Positions 8,650 through 9,642 of a DNA stretch of 10,787 bases are shown piece by piece. Made by a program: the position numbers and the translations under genes. Location: assembly GCA_003173915.1 (NCBI GenBank), contig PPGL01000031.1, positions 1 through 10,787 of the forward strand. Reading direction: 5' to 3'. The notes below the pieces were generated by a model. It ran no database searches. It had not been told where the DNA came from and was given only the letters and a program-made list of their open reading frames with translations. The first letter of the stretch is position 1. The number at the start of each line of letters is the position of its first letter. The stretch is from Candidatus Levyibacteriota bacterium (GTDB lineage: Bacteria > Patescibacteria > Microgenomatia > Levybacterales > UBA12049).

Positions 8650-9642
8650 ATGAAAAAATTATCAGTTGTTATTTCTGCCTATAATGAAGAAAAGAATATT
8701 GAAGAGTGTCTAGAATCAGTAAAAAATGTTGCAGATGAAATTATTGTTGTTGATAATTCGTCTTCAGATAATACTCAAGAAATTGCAAAAAAATACACAC
8801 CACATGTATTTACACAAAAAAATGATCCCAAAAAAATTGATTTACAAAAAAATTTTGGATTCTCAAAAGCTACAGGAGATTGGATTTTAAGTCTTGATGC
8901 AGACGAGCGGGTGAGTACGGAACTCGCTGCTGAGATCAAATCTGTCATCCTGGAGGGAGCAAAGCGACCGATAGGATCTTCCACAAATGATAAAAGAGAT
9001 TCTATCGCTTCTCCCGCTCAGCGGGCTTCGCTCCAGAATGACAAGAAAATTAGTGGATATTGGATTCCGCGAAAAAATATTATTTTTGGGAAATGGATTG
9101 AACACACGGGATGGTTTCCAGATCCACAACTACGACTTTTTCAAAAAGGAATGGGTCAGTATACCTCTGAACATGTACACGAACACATATCAATTACAGG
9201 GACAGTAGAAAATCTGCATGAATTTATTTTACACAAACACTATAATAATATTGGTGAATTTATTGGAAAAATGATGATTTATGCTCCAAATGAAGCAGAT
9301 AATTTAGTTGCGAATGGATACACATTTTCTTATTTAGACTCACTACGTTTCCCGGCAAAAGAGTTTATTAGTAGATTTTTTGCAAGAGAAGGGTACAAAG
9401 ATGGACTGCACGGACTTATTTTGTCACTTCTTATGGCATTTTATCATCTCATGATTTTTATTTTTCTTTGGGAGAAAAAGGAGTATCGTGAAGTAAATTC
9501 TGATGCATTTTTACATGATGTTAAAAATGAAAGTATCCATATAGGGAAAGAATTGTTGTATTGGTTTGCAACAGAAGGTCTTAAAGCAGCAAAAGGTATG
9601 GAAAAGATTACTCTAAAAATTAAACGCAAACTTTCTTTATGA
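8650..9642 (+). CDS. GT2 glycosyltransferase, WaaE-like, with in-frame palindromic insert
   Basis: A 330-residue GT-A fold enzyme of the WaaE/KdtX-like branch of family 2, predicted to add a sugar to a glycan on the inner membrane face. Motifs: SVVISAYNEEKNIEECL (5-21), VVDNSSSDNT (33-42), SLDADERVS (81-89) with D83/D85 as the DxD, GYWIPRKNIIFGKWIEH (136-152), GWFPDPQLRLFQKG (154-167) and HEHI (177-180). A hydrophobic stretch at 255-273 probably touches the membrane. Residues 99-131 come from a 99-bp GC-rich palindrome. Removing them would join ...AAEIKS directly to KKISGYWIP..., the normal spacing of the family. The frame is intact, so the gene is probably functional. It starts 4 bases after the flippase stop without a clear ribosome binding site, and overlaps the next gene by 4 bases. 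Confidence 0.85.
   Translation: MKKLSVVISAYNEEKNIEECLESVKNVADEIIVVDNSSSDNTQEIAKKYTPHVFTQKNDPKKIDLQKNFGFSKATGDWILSLDADERVSTELAAEIKSVILEGAKRPIGSSTNDKRDSIASPAQRASLQNDKKISGYWIPRKNIIFGKWIEHTGWFPDPQLRLFQKGMGQYTSEHVHEHISITGTVENLHEFILHKHYNNIGEFIGKMMIYAPNEADNLVANGYTFSYLDSLRFPAKEFISRFFAREGYKDGLHGLILSLLMAFYHLMIFIFLWEKKEYREVNSDAFLHDVKNESIHIGKELLYWFATEGLKAAKGMEKITLKIKRKLSL
8944..9042. repeat. 99-bp palindromic repeat element inserted in frame in a GT2 gene
   Basis: The outer arms 8944-8955 and 9031-9042 (GTCATcCTGGAG / CTCCAGaATGAC) pair at 11 of 12 positions. The inner arms 8970-8979 and 8997-9006 (GATAGGATCT / AGATTCTATC) pair at 9 of 10, plus one G-T wobble. AAGC 8962-8965 also pairs with GCTT 9007-9010. 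By hand count 51 of 99 bases are G or C, well above the flanks. The length is exactly 33 codons (V99 to D131), with no stop in the frame used. The insert falls in a loop where this enzyme family varies in length. The sequence resembles the dispersed GTCATTCTGGAGCGAAGC-type palindromes I associate with CPR and some other bacterial genomes. No second copy is in this window, so 'repeat' rests on that recognition. Confidence 0.8.
9013..9025. repeat. nested hairpin in the right arm of the palindromic element
   Basis: CCCGC-TCA-GCGGG forms a 5-bp all-G/C stem with a 3-base loop. The left arm has no counterpart, so the two arms of the element differ by this extra segment. In single-stranded form the element would be a long hairpin with a side branch. 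Confidence 0.7.

Follow-up and report, generated by a model that had tools for sequence, protein, structure and literature searches.

The 99-bp element embedded in a glycosyltransferase gene of a Levybacteria-type bacterium of the Candidate Phyla Radiation (CPR) is very probably a dispersed, non-autonomous palindromic repeat, composed of two TGTC-tagged REP-like hairpins and inserted in frame into the gene; its copies would scatter, and those that keep the frame within loops would persist and be translated. The identity as a repeat and the in-frame insertion are established at the level of sequence and by copies in related genomes. The window, i.e. the whole 10.8-kb stretch of DNA that was analysed, contains the following features:

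8650..9642, + strand: GT2 glycosyltransferase ORF (P0001, 330 aa; Pfam PF00535, E 1.5e-23), carrying the element in frame
8944..9042, + strand: whole element of 99 bp (codons V99-D131), made up of two REP-like hairpins that face opposite ways
8943..8946, + strand: TGTC tag at the left outer end (tag as defined in PMC3733652)
8944..8978, + strand: left hairpin, C type; outer stem ATCCT/AGGAT, internal loop GGAG/CGAT, apical arm longer
8979..8997, + strand: spacer of 19 nt between both hairpins
8998..9042, - strand: right hairpin, T type, with an ATTCT/AGAAT outer stem and an apical arm with CCCGCTGAGCGGG
9040..9043, - strand: TGTC tag at the right outer end, read from the sequence

Architecture of the Element

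The boundaries of the element are exact, running from GTC at 8944 to GAC at 9042 (codons 99-131 of the ORF), and the ORF from 8650 to 9642 has no internal stop, so that the in-frame insertion of 33 codons proposed in the initial annotation is confirmed to the base. The element is also GC-rich, as had been claimed, with about 50% GC (0.49-0.50 in 100-base windows) compared with 0.23-0.28 between 8600 and 8899 and 0.28-0.41 downstream. It had further been described as a single imperfect palindrome, of which the palindromic nature stands: the RNA from 8935 to 9050 is predicted to fold with -42.7 kcal/mol vs a shuffle mean of -25.6 (z -4.87, equalled by 0/200 shuffles), and the DNA of the element behaves likewise (z -4.16, 0/200 shuffles equal). 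It is not one long palindrome, however, but two hairpins separated by the spacer, each following the formula GTCATYCTGGAG-variable stem-CGATAGRATC and placed in opposite orientation to each other.

Host Protein and Site of Insertion

The genes around GT2 encode other glycosyltransferases as well as flippase-like and membrane proteins (six proteins tested). Most of the genomes that match GT2 best bear the label Levybacteria, with identities of 54% or less, in agreement with the earlier guess of a CPR host, and seven distant relatives (22-28% identical) are found in viral contigs. Of the 7999 candidates that were scored in a homologue search with P0001, 7113 reached E<=0.001, and 120 were listed and aligned. 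Among these 120, the segment from ADE to NII comprises 33-35 residues in 68, 36-41 in 32 and more in 20, compared with 62 residues in P0001. The statement that the rest of the family has only a short loop at this place is thus mostly correct, with 68 of the 120 at the commonest length, but does not hold for the 20 homologues with segments longer than 41 residues. After residue 104 lies the sole internal position with insertions of at least 2 aa among the homologues listed, reaching at least 4 aa in 30/120 and at least 8 aa in 19/120. Minus the 33 residues, the segment of P0001 would be 4-6 residues below the commonest length, and the junction is therefore no clean addition.

In P0002, which is 74% identical to P0001, the insert has 27 residues (VILEGGKGRPRGSHHDSKDSIASLQND) and agrees with that of P0001 in place and frame. 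Relatives without the segment, for which the initial annotation had proposed to look, are found in P0003-P0007 (64-68% identical). Since P0001 and P0002 share place and frame, the insert probably predates their split. Between the two, 20/26 aligned residues of the insert are identical, with 8 gap positions, and six residues in the region of the right hairpin are without counterpart in P0002; the remainder of the protein is identical at 226/297 positions. Judged from this pair, the insert is evolving no slower than its host protein. Insertion of family A, that of the element in the window, was seen in the GT2 loop of P0001 and P0002 only. The loop of P0014 has ITSLRAEAKQSRGSVDILTGLPRHSSVVPRNEVV, a family B peptide, and that of P0009 has LSPLPAGRQGLPQ, an LPAGRQG peptide; going by peptide likeness alone, both look like translations of other repeats. 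Short tandem-like inserts occur in the loops of several homologues, e.g. NSELRTQNSEL and KDQRSKNQDLK.

An AlphaFold model of P0001, based on an alignment of 30 sequences, has a mean pLDDT of 87, with block means of 87-97 for residues 1-100 and of 60, 49 and 55 for residues 101-130. In this model the insert is placed between the helix 90-101 and the strand 134-139, with a short helix at 122-129. The likeliest reading of the model is that the loop is flexible and hardly affects the enzyme, so that the insertion would probably be neutral, and a function of the added peptide is not supported. For comparison, a Rickettsia guanylate kinase with a palindromic element is translated and active, with a changed substrate affinity (Abergel 2006, via PMC2229807).

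Copies of the Hairpins in Related Genomes

Copies of the element were counted in relatives, mainly with reference to G007, the Levybacteria genome with locus L009, whose order and phylum are those meant below; from the organism of the window itself the 10.8-kb stretch was searched, and it contains no second copy with up to 3 mismatches. The 99-bp element matches 7/26 genomes, those reached via the GT2 matches, at E<=0.1, strongly in G007 (19 partial matches) and G005 (2) and marginally in the other five. The core hairpin pattern ATYCTGGAGN{2,16}GATAGRAT, for which the tag was not required, was found in 11/82 genomes of the order, with 25 hairpins in G007, 6 in G067, 5 in G065 and one in each of eight, vs 0/82 for the reversed pattern used as control. 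Across the phylum the numbers are 12/379 and 2/379, respectively. Over 36 nt, the left arm of the element in the window agrees at 97% with a copy in G007, the GT2 proteins being about 52% identical, and the apical stem varies among copies with its pairing kept (e.g. TGGCAACGACCA, GTCGCCTTGGCGACC and GGGCTTTAGCCC). The proposal that the element is dispersed, with some copies in frame in genes, accordingly holds for the relatives, G007 having 25 hairpins and 11 of 24 sites in frame.

Two further families occur in the order, namely family B in 20/82 genomes (no match to the reversed pattern) and family C in 42/82 (one match each in two genomes for the reversed control). A short palindrome, CTGCCGGCAGGCAGG, is likewise dispersed, in 40/82 genomes of the order with at most 26 matches, in G027, and none for the reversed pattern; many of its places are matched on both strands. 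Carriage by viruses was considered and rejected: the core pattern occurs in two viral contigs, but as isolated 18-nt matches, and these are judged to be due to chance because the rest of the hairpin is absent. No plasmid matched the element at E 0.01.

The third pair of the outer stem is Watson-Crick in 60/60 distinct tagged halves (29 C-G, 29 T-A and 2 G-C), in a search that left both of its bases free to vary. Among the core-pattern matches it is kept in 42/44 within the order, being broken in G039 and G081, and is also broken in two matches of the phylum, G139 and G161. The halves of family A dimers differ at this third pair in 21/21 cases, without a single homodimer there, a count that includes the L181 dimer, of which one half is doubtful. 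Family B dimers have identical halves in 0/40 and the same three bases before GCAAT in 14/40, and given these 14, family B does not obey the strict rule seen in family A. Head-to-head pairs of family C are mostly C/T among the matches listed, as assessed by eye. A preference for heterodimers is known for REPs and was tentatively explained as an escape from hairpin-cutting enzymes (PMC3733652).

In-Frame Copies in Housekeeping Genes

In G007, 11/24 sites lie in frame within ORFs of at least 150 aa, distributed over ten genes, all of which match NCBIfam models in a submission that covered ORFs of 90 aa or more. Above the curated cut-off are ValS (with two copies), AlaS, NAD(P)H-hydrate dehydratase, TsaE, DprA and TopA; below it are the other 4/10, namely MutY, RecJ, MurT and a ClpB-like ATPase, in which the element is found in the C-terminal tail. 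In G034, G067 and G065, 34/65 sites of families A and B are located inside ORFs of at least 90 aa, 33 of them of at least 150 aa. Twenty ORFs chosen from these three genomes gave 16 that match an NCBIfam family at E<=1e-8 and four that match none. Seven of the 16 are above the cut-off (LeuS, GatB in two genomes, GAPDH, UvrA, Nth and PurD) and nine below, including dihydrofolate reductase, TruB and a PcrA-like helicase. UvrA of G067 carries VILEGGINRPIGSRDSIATLQND, which corresponds to the reading frame of the element in the window. The remaining sites are between ORFs or overlap short ORFs, as placed by neighbouring ORFs only, and may include genes split by the element. Orthologues of ValS and UvrA with empty sites exist.

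Two of the G007 genes appear to hold more than one insertion: recJ has two in frame from different palindrome families (L176:92-172 and 384-457; VILNLFQDLPTPTEEIPDQVRND and CHPGASAIGSKKKDSIGRQGDLQND), and the C-terminal part of the MurT-like protein (L180:2696-4051) also has CHPELPPRIDLRVETGDSGSPLVDSGSLSGMTTR, which resembles another translated repeat.

An element adapted to coding was rejected as a candidate, there being no overall excess of stop-free frames in the dimers. The mean number of open frames out of six was 2.08 in genes, 1.44 elsewhere and 1.82 in shuffles for family A (21 dimers), and 2.93, 1.87 and 2.32, respectively, for family B (29 dimers), the counts being small and the control a home-made segment-swap shuffle. 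This absence of enrichment makes it more likely that the in-frame set stems from selection after insertion than from a coding design. By eye, dimers in larger ORFs nearly all exit as ...ND (AAT GAC), though the MT frame is open as well.

Different Repeats in the Same Loops

Homologous loops are occupied by different repeats in different species. In G007 a family A dimer occupies the ValS loop that follows FIEMKR; in G034 this loop has a family C dimer (GTCATCCTGAGCGAAGCGAAGGATC), and in G019 a further dimer of family C, one tag of which is changed. The second ValS loop occupied in G007 has a single hairpin of the CHPELVSGS type in G034. The sites within valS of G034 and G019 are included in the family C matches listed. 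Likewise, the UvrA loop that is of family A in G067 carries ATTCTGGACAAGCCAGAATGACG, a tagged hairpin of another type, in the orthologue of G034. GT2 has an orthologue in 47/82 genomes of the order, all of which were aligned, with a loop of 10-21 residues in 45/47. The loop of G020 has 28 residues and, read on the minus strand, is a hairpin resembling family C (GTCATCCTGAGGAGTATTAGCGACGTGAGGATCTC). The DNA of this loop recurs elsewhere in G020, once at 92% over 39 query bases (E 3.8e-8) and once more weakly (75%, E 0.037), and the stretch alone folds no better than shuffles (z -0.35, 62/200 as good).

Other forms of this loop were observed as well: in GT2 of G062 (L246:1735-1908) the loop comprises 33 residues and consists of short AAAGAYC-like repeats, so that it has grown in another way, and in a Shapirobacteria GT2 (L041:2470-2667) 66 residues at this loop are encoded by DNA that folds stably (z -2.86).

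From the sequences of these loops we conclude that permissive loops have been hit by insertions repeatedly, and the insertions are taken to be independent because the repeats differ. Whether this extends to a general picture for Levybacteria is evenly poised, namely that unrelated hairpin families serve as interchangeable loop donors, that ValS, UvrA and GT2 were colonised in frame independently across species, and that the repeats are a continuing source of peptides in reduced CPR genomes.

Mobility and Relation to Known Repeats

The hairpin dimer is probably the spreading unit, since opposite-orientation pairs with complementary differences are common. Copies would most likely scatter when the hairpin pair, in the form of single-stranded DNA, is transposed in trans. 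Judging from the distribution of the sites, insertions that shift the frame or strike structured parts would be lost, and those that keep the frame in permissive surface loops would persist and be translated. In GT2, the peptide VILEGAKRPIGSSTNDKRDSIASPAQRASLQND would extend a naturally variable loop leading from the helix of the DAD motif to the GYWIPR strand, as a flexible excrescence with most likely little effect.

RAYT-driven mobility was considered as well and received no support, no transposase being tied to the hairpins. Y1_Tnp, present in 49/82 genomes, is not found in the hairpin-bearing drafts G007, G005, G041 and G057, and at 30 Y1_Tnp loci there is no excess of hairpins, with 26 tagged hairpins vs 40 in mononucleotide shuffles. 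This absence is weak evidence because the genomes are drafts. A transposase is likewise not reported for CGTC REPs in PMC3733652.

Several features of the element are shared with the superfamily of CGTC-tagged REPs (Di Nocera et al. 2013, PMC3733652). These are the CGTC/TGTC tag, here TGTC at both outer ends; a stem starting with AT (here ATCCT/AGGAT and ATTCT/AGAAT); dispersed copies, opposite-orientation dimers and heterodimers, the dispersion being seen in relatives with 25 hairpins in G007 and 21 dimers over the loci read; intragenic in-frame copies, which encode 20-30 aa in CGTC REPs; and the lack of an associated tyrosine transposase, here for the 30 Y1_Tnp loci and the G007 draft. By contrast, CGTC-tagged REPs have a stem of 8-9 bp and a loop of 4-5 nt, whereas the hairpins here have an outer stem of 5-6 bp, the GGAG/CGAT internal loop and a variable apical stem, and the short unpaired tail, which is mostly CCA there, is CTT and CTC in the window. 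Moreover, the element is from Patescibacteria, which are not among the five phyla given for CGTC repeats in PMC3733652. As tag, AT start, dimers, dispersion and the lack of a transposase fit but stem, loop and tail differ, the element is filed as a variant near the CGTC superfamily, outside the groups CGTC-1 to CGTC-4.

The parallel with Rickettsia palindromic elements (RPEs) that had been drawn at the outset is apt in kind: like RPEs, the copies in relatives are found in frame in conserved proteins as well as between genes and are tolerated by the host. The hosts are unrelated, however, and the likeness is one of kind and description. RPEs of 105-146 bp have been reported (PMC2229807), and RPE-4 and RPE-6 correspond to CGTC-4 and CGTC-1, respectively (PMC3733652). 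By tag and dimer form, both RPEs and the element resemble the group of CGTC-tagged REPs. With REPINs and with GTAG REPs that have a RAYT, the element shares two short hairpins in opposite orientation that possibly move as a pair, but those have a GTAG tag and a RAYT gene, whereas the element lacks GTAG and shows no excess of hairpins beside the 30 Y1_Tnp genes.

Alternative Explanations

An unlikely alternative to a tolerated repeat is that the inserts have been retained for some benefit, with the peptide in the loop altering the interactions of the protein or the mRNA hairpin tuning translation or stability. The insert has indeed stayed in frame in P0001 and P0002 despite divergence to 74% identity, different repeats occupy homologous loops of ValS, UvrA and GT2, and the mRNA hairpin is strong (z -4.87). 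However, the insert is conserved no better than the remaining protein (20/26 vs 226/297) and has a 6-residue indel, it is predicted as a low-confidence loop, the same loops hold different peptides, Rfam finds no match to the element, and 45/47 genomic orthologues do with short loops.

It is far less probable still that the segment represents ordinary variation in loop length by local slippage, with a chance likeness to a palindrome. Loop length does vary in the family and several homologues have tandem-like inserts, but slippage is refuted by the copies, since the left arm matches dispersed copies of another species at 97% over its 36 nt, the GT2 of that species being only about 52% identical, and neither the fold (z -4.87) nor the compensatory stem changes across the copy family agree with it. 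Equally improbable is an artefact of assembly, in which a repeat was collapsed or two contigs were misjoined within the gene. P0001 comes from one contig only and short repeats do cause misjoins; yet the ORF runs on unbroken to either side of the insert and aligns with homologues over its length, P0002 has the same insert at the same place on another contig at 74% identity, and the same kind of in-frame insertion occurs in independent genomes. The reading as a dispersed repeat inserted in frame is therefore strongly preferred.

Implications

In PMC3733652, PMC2229807 and PMC12306157, protein-coding palindromes are discussed chiefly from Rickettsia and from a few other bacteria. In a literature search for palindromic repeats together with Patescibacteria, Candidate Phyla Radiation or Levybacteria, covering sources outside most subscription journals, none of the papers listed dealt with such elements in CPR bacteria. 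The palindromes in housekeeping genes of CPR bacteria suggest a process of broader reach that operates in small genomes too. They also advise caution, as orphan insertions in CPR proteins may derive from repeats. At the same time, they amount to insertion experiments done by nature, which point out the permissive loops of ValS, UvrA, TopA and others, and they provide several species for tracing how CGTC-type REPs move.
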